A stretch of DNA of 43,971 bases from Candidatus Microgenomates bacterium (GTDB lineage: Bacteria; Patescibacteriota; Microgenomatia; Daviesbacterales; UBA10151), in assembly GCA_016182045.1 (NCBI GenBank), contig JACOYE010000014.1:1-43971 (forward strand), written 5' to 3'. The first letter of the stretch is position 1. Each line of letters opens with the position of its first letter. Shown here one piece after another: positions 4,286 through 43,139 of this stretch. The notes under the pieces are model-generated. The model ran no database searches and was not told the DNA's origin. It saw only the letters and a program-made list of their open reading frames with translations. Position numbers and translations under genes: made by a program.

Positions 4286-6134
4286 AGAAGGCGGTCAAAT
4301 TATAGTTGTGGTCATCGCCGCTTTAGGGGTGGTTCTTTTTAGCGTGCTTTTTATTATTGCCGGCTCCCAACTTTATTTTCAAAATGCTTCTTATACGCTG
4401 GATGCAGAAATGGCCACCAGTTTGGCTGAGGCGGGGGTGGATAAAGCCCTGCAGTCAATCAACAGAACCGGAGGCAGCTACAGCGGTGAGTCTGAAACAT
4501 CCTTAGGTAAAGGCAGCTATTCTGTGACAGTGACTGCTCAAGATGCTGCCAATAAACTGGTTGAATCAACCGGTTTCGTTCCCAATAAAGCCAACCCCAG
4601 AGCCAAAAGAACCATCAAAATCACCGTCTCAAGAGGTGTGGGGGCTTCATTTGTTTACGGAATACAAGTTGGAGAGGGAGGATTGGAACTGGGTAACAGC
4701 AATATTATCACCGGCTCTGTTTATTCCAACGGCTCAATCACAGGAGGTAATGGTAATAAGATCACCGGAGATGTGTGGGTGGCCGGAGGCCCCCAGGCAG
4801 ATGCTGATCGTGAGACCGATTGTGAAGGCAGCAATTGTTCTGATTTTATTTTTGGCACCACAGTTGCCGGTCAAAGTCAACTTGATGTGGCTCAGAGTTT
4901 TAAGCCTGCTGTAGCAGAAGTTCTGAACAGAATTTTTATCAAGGTGAAAAGAATTGGTAGCGTTCAAGCGCCAGACGCCACTGTCAGGATTTTAAAAGAC
5001 AAATCAGGAGAACCTGACAAGAACCAGGTATTGGCAACAGGCACACTTTATAGAAATTTAACTTCTGATGTCAATTACGGTTGGATCGAGGTGACCTTTG
5101 ACAGCTTACCCGCTTTAACAGCAGGCACCACCTACTGGCTGATGGTTGATGTCTCATATAGTGCAGCAAATTATTGGACCTGGCAGGCAGATTTGGCCAA
5201 AAGTTATGCTTGCGGAACTCCAGACACCTGCATTGCCAAATGGTCCCCGGATTGGAAGGCGGGTAATTCTGTTTGGACTTTGATTAATGCAGACCTCTCT
5301 TTTAAGACTTTTATGGGAGGTGCTCCCACTTCCGTGGATGGAGGTGTCGGTAAAGGTATCAATGTTAAGAAAGATGCTTCGGGAAATGGAGGAAGTGTTC
5401 ACGCCAATACCATCAGAAATATCACCATGGAGGCTGATGCTTATTATAAAACCATTGACAATTCAGAAGCTGCCAACTTTTACCCCAACTCGGATGATCC
5501 TCCACCAAAAAGTTTTCCTCTCTCAGATGTTAATGTGTCGGATTGGCAAAGACAGGCTGGTGCTTGTGATAGCCAAGGCAATAATTGTCAAAATGAGGTG
5601 GTTGGCGATATTACCACTTGTATCAGTGTCTTGGAATCAAAAAAATATGTGGGCAATGTCACTTTTGGCAGTAATTGTAACGTCACAGTTAAATCACCTG
5701 TTTGGATAACAGGAAATTTAACATTTAACAGTGGCAATATCTTAAGGCTTGATCCCGCATATGGGGAAACTTCCGGGGTAATTGTGGTAGGGACTGACAC
5801 AGGAGGGGGGATAGTCACCCTTGGTAGTAACAATAGATTGGAAGGCACCGGTTCCGGCTCATCTATCTTGATGGTTCTGTCTACCTATGATTCCCAAACA
5901 TCTGGTACATCCGCCATAGTCATCACCAATATTGGTAATAGTGGAGTTTTTTATGCATCCAGAGGAATTATTGAACCGGGCAATCACAACACCTTTAAAG
6001 AACTGACTGCCTGGGGAATTAAACTGGTCAATAACGGCACTATTGATTATACCACAGGTTTATCCTCAACCCTTTTTACCTCAGGCCCGACAGGATCTTA
6101 TTCTCTGGTTAAGGGAACATATCAGGTTAAATAG
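4278..6134 (+). CDS. PilX-like protein with an inserted jelly-roll-like (choice-of-anchor type) domain and bactofilin-like repeats; candidate pilus-tip adhesin
   Basis: N-terminal TM plus MATSLAEAGVDKALQ; central QSFKPAVAEVLNRIFIKV...LTAGTTYWLMVDV; GNSNIITGSVYSNGSITGGNGNKITGDVWVAGG repeats. Confidence 0.65.
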   Translation: MIREGGQIIVVVIAALGVVLFSVLFIIAGSQLYFQNASYTLDAEMATSLAEAGVDKALQSINRTGGSYSGESETSLGKGSYSVTVTAQDAANKLVESTGFVPNKANPRAKRTIKITVSRGVGASFVYGIQVGEGGLELGNSNIITGSVYSNGSITGGNGNKITGDVWVAGGPQADADRETDCEGSNCSDFIFGTTVAGQSQLDVAQSFKPAVAEVLNRIFIKVKRIGSVQAPDATVRILKDKSGEPDKNQVLATGTLYRNLTSDVNYGWIEVTFDSLPALTAGTTYWLMVDVSYSAANYWTWQADLAKSYACGTPDTCIAKWSPDWKAGNSVWTLINADLSFKTFMGGAPTSVDGGVGKGINVKKDASGNGGSVHANTIRNITMEADAYYKTIDNSEAANFYPNSDDPPPKSFPLSDVNVSDWQRQAGACDSQGNNCQNEVVGDITTCISVLESKKYVGNVTFGSNCNVTVKSPVWITGNLTFNSGNILRLDPAYGETSGVIVVGTDTGGGIVTLGSNNRLEGTGSGSSILMVLSTYDSQTSGTSAIVITNIGNSGVFYASRGIIEPGNHNTFKELTAWGIKLVNNGTIDYTTGLSSTLFTSGPTGSYSLVKGTYQVK

Positions 6135-6135
6135 C

Positions 6136-6167
6136 CAATTTACAATTTACAATTTACAATTTACAAT
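6136..6167 (+). repeat. Period-7 tandem array upstream of pilM
   Basis: (CAATTTA)x4 + CAAT. Confidence 0.95.
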
Positions 6168-6181
6168 AAAGTTACTGCCCT

Positions 6182-25441: not shown

Positions 25442-26346
25442 ATTTATCTGTCATCATACTAAGCTACAATACTAAAGAAATTACTCACAGATGTTTACAA
25501 AAACTTGAGGAAGCCAAAATTTATTGCGAAAAAAAACTTAATAACAAAATAGAAGTTATCGCTTTAGATAATGGCTCATCAGATGGATCTGCTCAAATGA
25601 TTAAAACAGATCATCCCCAAGTAAAACTTATTGAATCAAAAGAAAATTTAGGTTTTTCCAAGGGTAACAATTTAGCAATGAAACAATGTAACAATCCATT
25701 TATTTTACTTTTAAACTCAGATGTTTATGTGGAAGAAGATAGTTTATATAAAACACTTGCCTATTTTAAGGTTAATAAAAATTGTGACGTAATGGGTGCA
25801 AAATTAAAATATGCCTCGGGCAAATTGCAGCCTTCTGCCGGTAATTTGCCCAACCCACTAAATATAATAACCTGGATTTTAGGTTTAGGTTTTTTGCCAC
25901 TGATTAACAATTTTATCCCCCCCCTTCATGCTAGAAATATGCCTTTTTTCTCAAAAGCCCATCAGGTTGGCTGGATTATGGGAGCTTTTTTTATGATAAA
26001 AAAAGCAATTTTTGAGAAAACCTTAGGTTTTGATGAAAATTTATTTATGCATATGGAAGAGGTTGAGTGGTGTAAAAGGATTAATATGGCTCACTTTAAA
26101 ATATGGTATGTGCCACAAGTTGAGGTAGTTCACCTCCATGGGGCCTCATCAAAGTTTGATCTAGGTGCAAGTTTTTTAAATGAGCTTAAAGGAATTAAAT
26201 ATTATCTTAAAAAACATTATCCCCCTTTTTATTTGCCAGTTAAATTATTTTTAATTTTGGGGTTAATTTTAAGAATAATAGCTTTTTCTTTACTGGGAAA
26301 AACAAAAAGAGCAAGAATTTATGTGGAAGGATTGGGAGTGATATAG
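25429..26346 (+). CDS. Family 2 glycosyltransferase
   Basis: LSVIILSYNTKEITHRCLQKL...ALDNGSSDGSAQMI...ENLGFSKGNN; 13-bp overlap with upstream GT2. Confidence 0.92.
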   Translation: MDQLDLSVIILSYNTKEITHRCLQKLEEAKIYCEKKLNNKIEVIALDNGSSDGSAQMIKTDHPQVKLIESKENLGFSKGNNLAMKQCNNPFILLLNSDVYVEEDSLYKTLAYFKVNKNCDVMGAKLKYASGKLQPSAGNLPNPLNIITWILGLGFLPLINNFIPPLHARNMPFFSKAHQVGWIMGAFFMIKKAIFEKTLGFDENLFMHMEEVEWCKRINMAHFKIWYVPQVEVVHLHGASSKFDLGASFLNELKGIKYYLKKHYPPFYLPVKLFLILGLILRIIAFSLLGKTKRARIYVEGLGVI

Positions 26347-26373
26347 AATTAAGAATTATGAATTAAGAATTAA
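26346..26373 (+). repeat. Period-7 tandem array upstream of the two-domain GT gene
   Basis: GAATTAA-GAATTAT-GAATTAA-GAATTAA. Confidence 0.85.
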
Positions 26374-26378
26374 GGGTT

Positions 26379-35101: not shown

Positions 35102-36139
35102 TTAATATTTCTCCAAAAAGCTTAAATCACCGCTATTAAAAAGTCGGATATCTTCAATGCCTTCCCTAAGCATGACCATCCGGCCCGGTCCCACTCCCCA
35201 GGCTATCCCGGAATAAATATTTGGATCAATCCCCCCTGCTTTTAAAACATCAGGATGAATCATGCCTGCACCAGCAAGTTCCAAAAAACCAGTCTGTCCA
35301 CAAACTTTGCAACCCTTTCCTTTACAAAACACACAGGATGCATCCACCCCCACTCCCGGTTCCACAAAGGGATAGTATTTTGGCCTAAGTCTTGCTTTGA
35401 TATCCTGTCCTAATGTGCCCTTAAAAAAGTATTCTGATAAATATTGAAGATGAGCCATACTGACACCCTTGTCTACATATACTATTTCAAATTGTTCAAA
35501 AGTATGCTCGTGTCTGGCATCAACATTTTCGAATCTGAAGCATCTGCCCAGATTCATCATCCTGATGGGCGGTGTATTGTCTTTGAGGATTCGGATTTGA
35601 GAATTAGATGTATGTGTTCTTAATAATAATTTGGAACTTGGAACTTGGAACTTGGAACTTATATAAAAGGTATCCCAAAGATCCCTGGCAGGATGATTCT
35701 CGGGAATATTTAGAACTTCAAAATTGTTGTAATCAGTATCAATATGGGGGGCATCAGCTTCCACAAATCCTAAATTTTTAAATAGTTTAACAATTTCCTG
35801 CTCAAATTGTGTCACAGGGTGCAGATGTCCTTTTCTAGCCTTCAACCTCGAAGGTTGCAGCGTTAAGTTTTCTTCTGATAACCTTTTATAACTTTCCTCA
35901 CGAATATTTGTTCTTTTTTCATTTATCCCCTCTTCTAATTGCTGTTTAACCTGATTAAAAGTGGGGCCAATAATTTTTAACTGATCCTGGGAAAGAGTGG
36001 AAAATTGTTTGGAAAGTTGATCTACTGCCCCATTTTTGCCAAAAAGCTCCAAAAAAATCTCATCCAATTCTTTTAAAGTTTTAGCCTTTTGGATTTTTTC
36101 TAGATAATCTTTTTGTATCTGGGAAATCTTTTCTTCCAT
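35102..36139 (-). CDS. pheS: Phenylalanyl-tRNA synthetase alpha subunit
   Basis: GHLHPVTQFEQEIVKLFKNLGF, LLRTHTSNSQIR, FEQFEIVYVDKG, GVGPGRMVMLREGIEDIRLF. Confidence 0.96.
   Translation of the reverse strand: MEEKISQIQKDYLEKIQKAKTLKELDEIFLELFGKNGAVDQLSKQFSTLSQDQLKIIGPTFNQVKQQLEEGINEKRTNIREESYKRLSEENLTLQPSRLKARKGHLHPVTQFEQEIVKLFKNLGFVEADAPHIDTDYNNFEVLNIPENHPARDLWDTFYISSKFQVPSSKLLLRTHTSNSQIRILKDNTPPIRMMNLGRCFRFENVDARHEHTFEQFEIVYVDKGVSMAHLQYLSEYFFKGTLGQDIKARLRPKYYPFVEPGVGVDASCVFCKGKGCKVCGQTGFLELAGAGMIHPDVLKAGGIDPNIYSGIAWGVGPGRMVMLREGIEDIRLFNSGDLSFLEKY
35631..35658 (-). repeat. Period-7 tandem array inside pheS, four exact units
   Basis: (TTGGAAC)x4 on +, encoding SSKFQVPSSK region. Confidence 0.95.
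35841..35860 (-). repeat. Palindrome inside pheS (LQPSRL)
   Basis: TTCAACCTCGAAGGTTGCAG on +; 18/20 identity to the MurT copy. Confidence 0.85.
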
Positions 36140-41097: not shown

Positions 41098-41820
41098 CTA
41101 TCCGAACCTGGAGATAGCTTGTTGGTGTGCCAATAGTTCAAAATCATCATCGAGTGGTTCAAGATTAATTTCCTTACCATATTTAACTTCCAAAGCTTTT
41201 TTAATTAACCAGTCAGCCAAGATGGGATTTTTGGGAAGCAAGGATCCATGCATGTAGCAGCCAATGGCATTTTTATAAATGCACCCTTCTGTTGTATCAG
41301 CCCCATTATTACCAAAGCCTTTAATGACAATTCCCAAGGAGTATTCTCCATCTTTGAGATAAGTTTTTCCTGAATGATTTTCAAAACCAACTAGTTTGCC
41401 AAATTGTGTCTCCACTACAATATTGCCAATCATCCGATCGTCACTGGCCACAGTGTAAGCCGGGAATAAACTGATTCCAGGCAGTTTTGGTCCCCTGTGA
41501 GGTTTATAATACTCTCCTAATAGCTGATATCCTCCACAAACAGAAAGTAGTGGAACTCCCCTTTCTACCTCTTGCTTAATTATCTTCCCCTTGCCACTTG
41601 ACGCAAGATCAGAAGCCACTAGACTTTGTTGCTGATCCTGTCCACCGCCAAAAAAGAAGATGTCTACATCATTTTTTTTCATTATATTTGCGGTCGAGAA
41701 GTTTTTGACAACTACATTAATTCCTCTCCATTCAGCTCTTTTTTTCAAAGTGATAATATTTCCTGTATCACCATAGATGTTCATAAGATCACCGTAAAGA
41801 TAGCCAATCGTTACTTTCAT
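41098..41820 (-). CDS. gatD: Lipid II isoglutaminyl synthase glutaminase subunit GatD
   Basis: YLYGDLMNIYGDTGNIITLKKRAEWRG, VCGGYQLLGEYY, GFENHSGKTYL; overlaps murT. Confidence 0.93.
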   Translation of the reverse strand: MKVTIGYLYGDLMNIYGDTGNIITLKKRAEWRGINVVVKNFSTANIMKKNDVDIFFFGGGQDQQQSLVASDLASSGKGKIIKQEVERGVPLLSVCGGYQLLGEYYKPHRGPKLPGISLFPAYTVASDDRMIGNIVVETQFGKLVGFENHSGKTYLKDGEYSLGIVIKGFGNNGADTTEGCIYKNAIGCYMHGSLLPKNPILADWLIKKALEVKYGKEINLEPLDDDFELLAHQQAISRFG

Positions 41821-43139
41821 TCTTCCTCCCAGTAGTGACGCTTGATACCAATCTTTGCTAAGATCCTTTGTAATTCTAACATGGCTGTATAGGTGGGTAA
41901 GATAAAAAGTCGTGCTTTTAGGCCATCCTTAGCCTGTCTAAAGGCTTTTTTTAGATCTTGCTCAATATTAATTAGTTTAGGATCAAACCCTGCATATTTT
42001 AACCTATTTGCCAAATCATAAGCTCTGGTCCCTGATGCTACTACCTGTAACCTGTAACCTGTCTCCTGTAACCTTTCCCACTGCGCATCCCAGATCCAGG
42101 AGACATCGCGTCCGTCTGCTATATTATCATTTAAGGCAAAAAGCAGTCTATCGTTTGGTTTTAAATTTGGAGTAATTGTCTCAAAAACCTGTGTTGCTCC
42201 CGCAGGATTCTTTATAAGAAAAATAAATCCATCTTTGCGATGCAACCTGGAAGGTTGCAGGCTAAACTTCTCCATTCTGCCAAAAGCCGGAGAATAGTGT
42301 TTAAGGGATTTAATCATAGTAGTTGGTGAGAAACCTAGTCTTGTTCCTGCTGCAAAAGCTGCTAAGAAATCATAGATATGGTAAATGCCCGGAAGAGGCA
42401 AGGTAACTGGAAGATGGAAGGTGTTCGCTTCGCGAAGCGAGGAATATTGAAGATGGAAATAAGATCCTTTTAAACCATGTAATTTGACATTTTTAGCTTC
42501 AAATTCATAATTTTCTTGCTCTTTTTGCTGTTCAATTGCCTCTCCTACGATTTTATAATCCTTAACCCCAAACAGCTGTACTTTTCCTTTGAAACATTTT
42601 TTTAACGATCTGGTATTAGCATCATCCCCGTTGAGCAAAATTTGTGTTGGGGATTTCAGAGTTGTTAGGGTTTTACACCAGCGTTTAACTACACTATCTA
42701 CCTCCCCATATCTATCCAGCTGATCTCTGAAAACGTTTAGGAAAAGTACCACACCTGGTTTGATCTTGGGTGCAACAATATTAAAAGCAGCTTCATCTAA
42801 TTCCCAAATCCCTAGATCTACTTTCCCACTTGAAATGTGGGAATACGAATTAACCAAAGTAGAGGTAACCCCCCTCTCTAAATTCGATCCTGTGTGATTT
42901 TTGATAACTTTTAGGCCTTCAATTTTGGCAAAATGGGCAAGCATTCTGGCTGTGGTGGTTTTGCCGTTGGTACCGGTGATGACCACATTTTGAGGAATTT
43001 TTCTGGAAAGCTTGCCGACTAAATCTGGATCAATTTTGAGGGCATATAAACCAGGGGCTGCCGAGCCACCACCAATCTTAAATGTCTTTGAGATAGTGGC
43101 AATCAGCTTGCCCAAAATTACAGCCGCCAGAGTTTTCAT
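41817..43139 (-). CDS. murT: Lipid II isoglutaminyl synthase Mur ligase subunit MurT, carrying several repeat-derived insertions
   Basis: NVVITGTNGKTTTARMLAHFAK, FLNVFRDQLDRYGEVD, NPAGATQVFETI, LFALNDNIADGRDVSWIWD. Confidence 0.94.
   Translation of the reverse strand: MKTLAAVILGKLIATISKTFKIGGGSAAPGLYALKIDPDLVGKLSRKIPQNVVITGTNGKTTTARMLAHFAKIEGLKVIKNHTGSNLERGVTSTLVNSYSHISSGKVDLGIWELDEAAFNIVAPKIKPGVVLFLNVFRDQLDRYGEVDSVVKRWCKTLTTLKSPTQILLNGDDANTRSLKKCFKGKVQLFGVKDYKIVGEAIEQQKEQENYEFEAKNVKLHGLKGSYFHLQYSSLREANTFHLPVTLPLPGIYHIYDFLAAFAAGTRLGFSPTTMIKSLKHYSPAFGRMEKFSLQPSRLHRKDGFIFLIKNPAGATQVFETITPNLKPNDRLLFALNDNIADGRDVSWIWDAQWERLQETGYRLQVVASGTRAYDLANRLKYAGFDPKLINIEQDLKKAFRQAKDGLKARLFILPTYTAMLELQRILAKIGIKRHYWEEE
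42045..42074 (-). repeat. Period-7 array inside murT (RLQETGYRLQV)
   Basis: CTGTAAC-CTGTAAC-CTGTCTC-CTGTAAC on +. Confidence 0.9.
42241..42260 (-). repeat. Palindrome inside murT (LQPSRL)
   Basis: TGCAACCTGGAAGGTTGCAG. Confidence 0.85.
42410..42458 (-). repeat. Insertion with palindromic core flanked by 10-bp direct repeats inside murT
   Basis: GAAGATGGAA (42410-42419) ... TTCGCTTCGCGAAGCGA ... GAAGATGGAA (42449-42458). Confidence 0.85.
42823..42843 (-). repeat. Palindrome inside murT (SHISSG)
   Basis: TTCCCACTTGAAATGTGGGAA. Confidence 0.8.

Follow-up and report, generated by a model that had tools for sequence, protein, structure and literature searches.

The small dispersed repeats (SDRs) of cyanobacteria, described by Elhai et al. 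in 2008, are reportedly hairpins of about 20 nt (21–27 nt), often set in tandem heptameric repeats, and are said to be mobile without encoded machinery. One of them, SDR5, targets the octamer HIP1 and enters it precisely between two of its bases (PMC4390886). The REPs/RAYTs (REPINs) comprise GTAG- and CGTC-tagged repeats (PMC3733652, PMC3116915, PMC2817692); REPs are mostly intergenic, and intragenic copies are known, DNA polymerase I included (PMC3733652). Rickettsia palindromic elements (RPEs) are about 150 bp long, lie in frame in unrelated genes and carry an ORF for a conserved peptide (PMC10969869), and heptamers, as tandem repeats also called STRRs, are over-represented in some bacteria, cyanobacteria and Xanthomonas among them (PMC4692102). 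A search of the open literature, which leaves most subscription journals outside, returned no report of heptamer arrays in Patescibacteria or of palindromic insertions in CPR bacteria.

The locus described here lies in a window of 43,971 nt (the whole stretch of DNA that was analysed), from a Candidatus Microgenomates genome of 905 kb in 24 contigs. The first features to consider are the host gene, its neighbor, and the insert:

41098 to 41820, minus strand: gatD, the partner glutaminase of MurT (NF045636, 2.5e-63), context only
41817 to 43139, minus strand: murT, encoding the lipid II isoglutaminyl synthase subunit MurT (440 aa), host of the insertions
42424 to 42441, minus strand: 18-bp palindromic element CTCGCTTCGCGAAGCGAA, with family consensus CTCGCTTCGCGAAGCGAG

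The two genes overlap by 4 nt. MurT was identified by profile matches to NF045635 (8e-60), PF08353 (MurT_C, 1.3e-32), and PF08245, its relatives in the PDB are 7q8e, 6gs2, and 6fqb, and its closest relatives belong for the most part to genomes labelled Candidatus Daviesbacteria. In an AlphaFold2 model (pLDDT 86.6), the protein has strands at residues 226–233 and 240–247, with the 18-mer coding for the turn between them, residues 234–239 (SLREAN); the palindrome thereby adds six residues to a surface loop of MurT. Our preferred reading, which we consider probable, is that this 18-bp palindrome inserted without duplication into a murT heptamer array that was already there.

Set beside the known systems, the 18-mer resembles an SDR in being a dispersed hairpin of roughly 20 nt that inserts cleanly and often in heptamer arrays, and it differs in its host group and in being a perfect palindrome found mostly in frame in the protein genes of a Patescibacteria family. 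With REPs it shares a short palindromic form, dispersal in the genome, and intragenic copies, but it has no tag or tail, few copies that are mostly intragenic, and no RAYT gene beside it; the flanks of its 20 copies, searched for a GTAG or CGTC tag at the foot of the hairpin, vary and have no common tetranucleotide. Like an RPE, it is a palindromic insert in frame in unrelated protein genes, but it measures 18 bp, encodes three different peptides, and has an exactly defined clean junction, matching an RPE neither in length nor in peptide. Because the REP tag, the RAYT neighborhood, and the RPE length are all absent, we class the 18-mer as working like an SDR, and SDRs, judged by their description, appear to be the closest to it in behavior. 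The 7-nt arrays resemble STRRs in being over-represented in the genome here as well, and they differ in lying inside conserved protein genes, with a unit that varies by species at one site, and in being landing sites for palindromes.

Dispersal, junctions and targets of the 18-mer

The core of the element, CGCTTCGCGAAGCG, has 20 occurrences spread over 7 of 43 family genomes, against none for the reversed control. The perfect 18-mer CTCGCTTCGCGAAGCGAG makes up 18 of these 20 copies, and the other two are one base off. Copy number is low (1–6 per genome); the window's own genome has six copies at no more than one mismatch, and scanning it at two or three mismatches yielded no extra copies (control 0 at three mismatches). 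In a sample of the phylum, the 18-mer was found in 2 of 380 genomes, both of them from this family. About 14 of the 20 copies lie within ORFs, all three frames being used (peptides SLREA, LASRSE, and RFAKR), and the 18-mer is free of stop codons in every frame. The genes for MurT, YebC, and a glycosyltransferase-like membrane protein carry it in two genera each, and further copies lie in the genes for SucD, a MurE-like ligase, DprA, DNA polymerase I, MltG, trigger factor, a FemX-like protein, and an O-antigen-ligase-like protein, the names beyond MurT being putative ones read from the sequences. One copy in the own genome lies inside the RNase P RNA gene (RF00010, 107 bits), near its 3' end (L094 1511–1528, G000:C1:35910–35927).

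A side observation concerns a membrane protein that carries the 18-mer at the same place in the own genome, G000 (L095), and in G028 (L108), which are not sisters in the tree; in both, the 18-mer is set within 9-nt repeats that are CCCTAATAC-like.

Occupied and empty sites can be compared base by base in orthologous genes. In mltG, the occupied site (L169) reads GTTCAGAATT, the 18 nt, and then CAGAATTCAGAATTTTT, the empty site in another genus (L185) reads GAATTCAGAATT followed directly by CAGAATTCAGAATTTTT, and most orthologues are without exactly those six residues. In yebC, the element is present in L116 and L117, the first reading AAAGGGGAAAGGG, the 18 nt, and GGAAGT, and in the empty L123 the flanks of L116 are joined, AAAGGGGAAAGGG running straight into GGAAGT. 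The sucD gene is longer in L146 than in L147 by 39 nt, equal to the 18-mer plus 21 nt (three GGGGAAA units). When deletion lengths of 14–24 nt were compared for heptamer register, 18 was best in L004, L093, L097, L100, and L107, with junction heptamer matches of 6/7, 5/7, 6/7, 7/7, and 7/7, respectively; in the window, an 18-nt deletion gives 4/7, and 25 nt (18 + 7) scores higher, 5/7. The sequence-only reading had looked to flanking direct repeats of 8–12 bp at other copies, and what adjoins them instead is a duplication of 0–2 bp in 18 of 20 cases and of 7 bp in the remaining two, where it is the heptamer itself abutting both sides. Because the orthologue pairs, the heptamer register, and the 0–2 bp adjoining most copies all agree, we take these comparisons to show a clean 18-bp insertion with no duplication of target bases. 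The claim of the sequence-only reading that the palindromes move holds up on better evidence than it had offered: the 20 dispersed copies, the zero control matches, and the mltG and yebC pairs support seeing the palindrome as a dispersed, inserting element.

As a class assignment, a transposon or MITE with a target-site duplication was tried for the 18-mer and rejected, since adjacent repeats are 0–2 bp (18/20) and empty sites differ by 18 bp net.

The preferred targets of the 18-mer are heptamer arrays and the tips of other hairpins. Of the 20 healed sites, 6 have a lag-7 identity above the 99% control level (0.2 expected). Three loci (L096, L099, and L105) have the 18-mer at one and the same position in a CGTC-like hairpin tip, and at L106 it sits in another palindrome. 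Hairpin formation at the healed junction shows a mild enrichment, with 4/20 exceeding the 95% level of the controls, by a count of perfect-arm hairpins that misses REP tips with mismatched stems.

Separately, where two genera have the 18-mer in a loop of yebC, different heptamer arrays or other palindromes occupy that loop in further genera (L118, L119, L121, L124, L125, L127, L128, and L129).

How the element might move can be framed around murT. The starting state would have been a 7-nt repeat array encoding both strands of the MurT beta-hairpin, which the 18-bp perfect palindrome CTCGCTTCGCGAAGCGAG would then have entered without target duplication, possibly as a hairpin-forming single strand moving into DNA exposed at replication forks or in slipping arrays. 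Since 18 nt with no stop in any frame lengthens the turn by six residues and causes no frameshift, selection could then have tolerated the palindrome at the hairpin turn. The array itself would turn over by slippage, remaining in frame if three units (21 nt) change together or where +7 and −7 compensate. The putative mobilizer is an HUH (Y1, RAYT-type) transposase encoded elsewhere in the genome, and RAYT-like Y1 transposases are candidates for this role. Y1 transposase genes (PF01797, over the cut-off) are present in 39 of 43 family genomes, including three in the own genome, which resemble RAYTs but stay below the cut-off of the RAYT model NF047646 (39–61 bits, cut-off 80). Y1 genes are thus far more widely spread than the 18-mer, and their presence alone makes no link. 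The RAYT neighborhoods of the own genome and three relatives hold few palindromes and no 18-mer.

The main alternative is that template switching at stalled forks copies the 18-mer from locus to locus with no dedicated transposase. Taken as an explanation of its own, we judge it possible but on the unlikely side. It would account for the missing duplication, the short length, and the preference for arrays and hairpins, and it fits the result that no Y1_Tnp match, nor any transposase gene adjoining a copy, was found within 2 kb of the 20 18-mers; on the other hand, at least six loci have exact ends and a constant length of 18 bp, whereas switching driven by microhomology would be expected to vary more. 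As routes for the movement, RAYT action and fork-associated template switching carry similar weight.

We regard it as very unlikely that the palindrome was born in place by mutation or quasi-palindrome correction (strand switching) with no movement between loci. It occupies repeats and the tips of hairpins, places of polymerase stalling and strand switching, but an identical 18-mer recurs in unrelated genes and genera, local templates would yield locus-specific palindromes, and the reversed control, which has the same composition and is a palindrome too, does not occur. Equally improbable in our estimation is a palindrome kept by selection for a function (an RNA hairpin, a protein loop, or a DNA-binding site) and not by selfish spread. 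The shared site in two genera for yebC and the glycosyltransferase-like gene, and the murT sites one unit apart, would suit such a function, but the element is read in all three frames in unrelated genes at non-homologous places, and most relatives have copies of the same genes without it.

The 10-bp repeats and the heptamer array in murT

The palindrome in murT interrupts an array whose two parts each contain one copy of the 10-bp repeat:

42442 to 42458, minus strand: 5' part of the interrupted heptamer array, TTCCATC TTCAATA TTC, with the first 10-bp repeat
42405 to 42423, minus strand: 3' part of the interrupted heptamer array, CACC TTCCATC TTCCAGT T, with the second 10-bp repeat

On the minus strand the locus reads TTCCATCTTC-AATATTCCTCGCTTCGCGAAGCGAACACC-TTCCATCTTC, with the repeats at 42458–42449 and 42419–42410 and the palindrome between them, just as the sequence-only reading had described, and taking out one repeat along with the insert (39 nt) does leave GSYFHLPVTLPLPG in frame. 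Chance does not account for the repeat, since 10 or more nt common to the 25-nt flanks occurs at only 0.25% of random sites in these loci. It is also not peculiar to murT, as TTCCATCTTC has 14 occurrences in the 905-kb genome against 5 for its reversed control, and its other loci include four visibly degenerate 7-nt arrays (L033, L035, L036, and L040).

What the repeats are becomes apparent when exactly 18 nt (CTCGCTTCGCGAAGCGAA) are removed. The window then reads TTCCATC-TTCAATA-TTCCACC-TTCCATC-TTCCAGT, five heptamers in register, and its protein becomes GSYFHLQYSTFHLPVTLPLPG, with the hairpin length usual for the family. L004 without its 18-nt palindrome likewise reads TTCCATC-TTCAATC-TCCCAGC-TTCCATC-TTCCAGT. 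Because deleting 18 nt restores the heptamer register, the 10-bp repeats are units 1 and 4 of the array. In an alignment of 35 distinct family MurT proteins, the hairpin region before the LPLPG motif is most commonly 13 residues long (21 proteins), and it is 19 residues long in two, as expected for the window and L004. A 39-nt deletion would leave a hairpin of about 6 residues, a length in no relative, and GSYFHLPVTLPLPG, the empty site that the sequence-only reading had proposed to find in a relative, occurs in 0 of the 35. The idea that a transposon-like element of 29 bp (39 bp if one repeat is counted) inserted and duplicated 10 bp of target is therefore hardly credible, for although a perfect repeat stands on both sides of the insert and the deletion keeps the frame, its predicted empty site is in no relative, its healed hairpin falls about 7 residues under the family norm, its repeat units are array units that occur elsewhere in the genome without the palindrome, the other palindrome copies have no such repeats, the orthologue pairs show a clean 18 bp, and the register is restored by 18 nt and not by 39.

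A clear heptamer array is present in the hairpin DNA of 17 of the 35 murT genes, with a unit that differs by species (e.g., CCAACTA, TCAATTC, TTAACTA, AAAATTG, and TTTCAAA), so that many relatives have a different array in the same MurT hairpin without the palindrome. A scan of periods 5–10 in murT hairpin DNA found none but 7 that passed the threshold. Tandem arrays in the window number four at lag 7 and zero at every other lag, and in 214 kb around the relatives' murT genes there are 32 at lag 7, 3 at lag 8, and 1 at lag 9. What the analysis as a whole demonstrates is the array, the exact 18-bp length of the insert, the lack of a target-site duplication, the insert's spread through unrelated genes of a few genera within a single family, and its preference for heptamer arrays and hairpin tips.

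The nearest MurT relative carries the 18-mer one heptamer away, in another genus and in a different reading frame, and the clade of G000, G027, and G013 is weakly supported in the tree (0.54). The murT 18-mers of the two genera may go back to a single insertion, with compensating heptamer changes afterwards, or to two separate ones, and the palindrome and its neighbors within MurT could have been copied together.

Further heptamer arrays in the window lie at 6130–6171, 26344–26375, and 35626–35664; CAATTTA and AATTAAG arrays are at or just past gene ends, and a GGAACTT array is inside a minus-strand ORF.

Exact, base-resolved empty and occupied sites for an 18-bp mobile palindrome in alignable conserved genes make it testable how such tiny elements move. 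They also suggest caution, as apparent target-site duplications beside short palindromes may be pre-existing tandem arrays.

Repeats at the other turns of MurT

Two further sites in murT also bear repeats, which we have designated B and C:

42234 to 42266, minus strand: second murT palindromic element, 33 nt (11 codons), TTTAGCCTGCAACCTTCCAGGTTGCATCGCAAA, at a hairpin turn (site B)
42042 to 42075, minus strand: heptamer array at lag 7, (CTGTAAC)n on the plus strand, encoding LQETGYRLQV (site C)

In the AlphaFold2 model, sites B (295–301) and C (361–364) are turns too, and site C lies between a MurT helix and a strand. The 33-nt element ends in TTTAGCYT..., and its stem core, GCAACCT-NNN-AGGTTGC, has 15 copies in 8 of 43 genomes (control 0), and the own genome has an intact 33-nt copy at L037; a regular expression for the 33-nt element, which was too narrow, gave 7 matches (control 0). 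In G015 a related copy stands 16 bp upstream of a RAYT-like gene, and in G037 another lies about 150 bp downstream of such a gene, so that the second element resembles REPs in having copies beside RAYT-like genes in two genomes, and the RAYT link is better for this element than for the 18-mer.

These turns show how repeat DNA can supply surface loops of an essential enzyme. A broader and more tentative proposition, to which we give somewhat less than even chances, is that in these reduced genomes selfish, frame-compatible DNA, in the form of heptamer arrays and 18- and 33-nt palindromes, keeps rebuilding the loops of essential proteins. Three heptamers amount to seven codons, palindromes of 18 or 33 nt amount to 6 or 11 codons, and the palindromes would land on arrays and on each other's hairpin tips. 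If this were true, the reading frame would have set the length of the 18-bp palindrome, which would rank with the smallest known mobile DNA elements.

Several minor observations concern the same sites. Copies related to the site B element adjoin RAYT-like genes at loci L222 and L223, related copies with other stems occupy the same murT site B in L019, L020, and L026, and both the own genome (L227) and G027 (L229) have one in a glmS-looking ORF. Site C is an insertion hot spot, with heptamer arrays in 11 of 35 murT genes, and in other species it holds at least four unrelated REP-like palindromes (CGTCATTGCGAG..., CGTCATCCTGAA..., GTCATCCCGC..., and TCCCGAGCGAAGTCGAGGGA).
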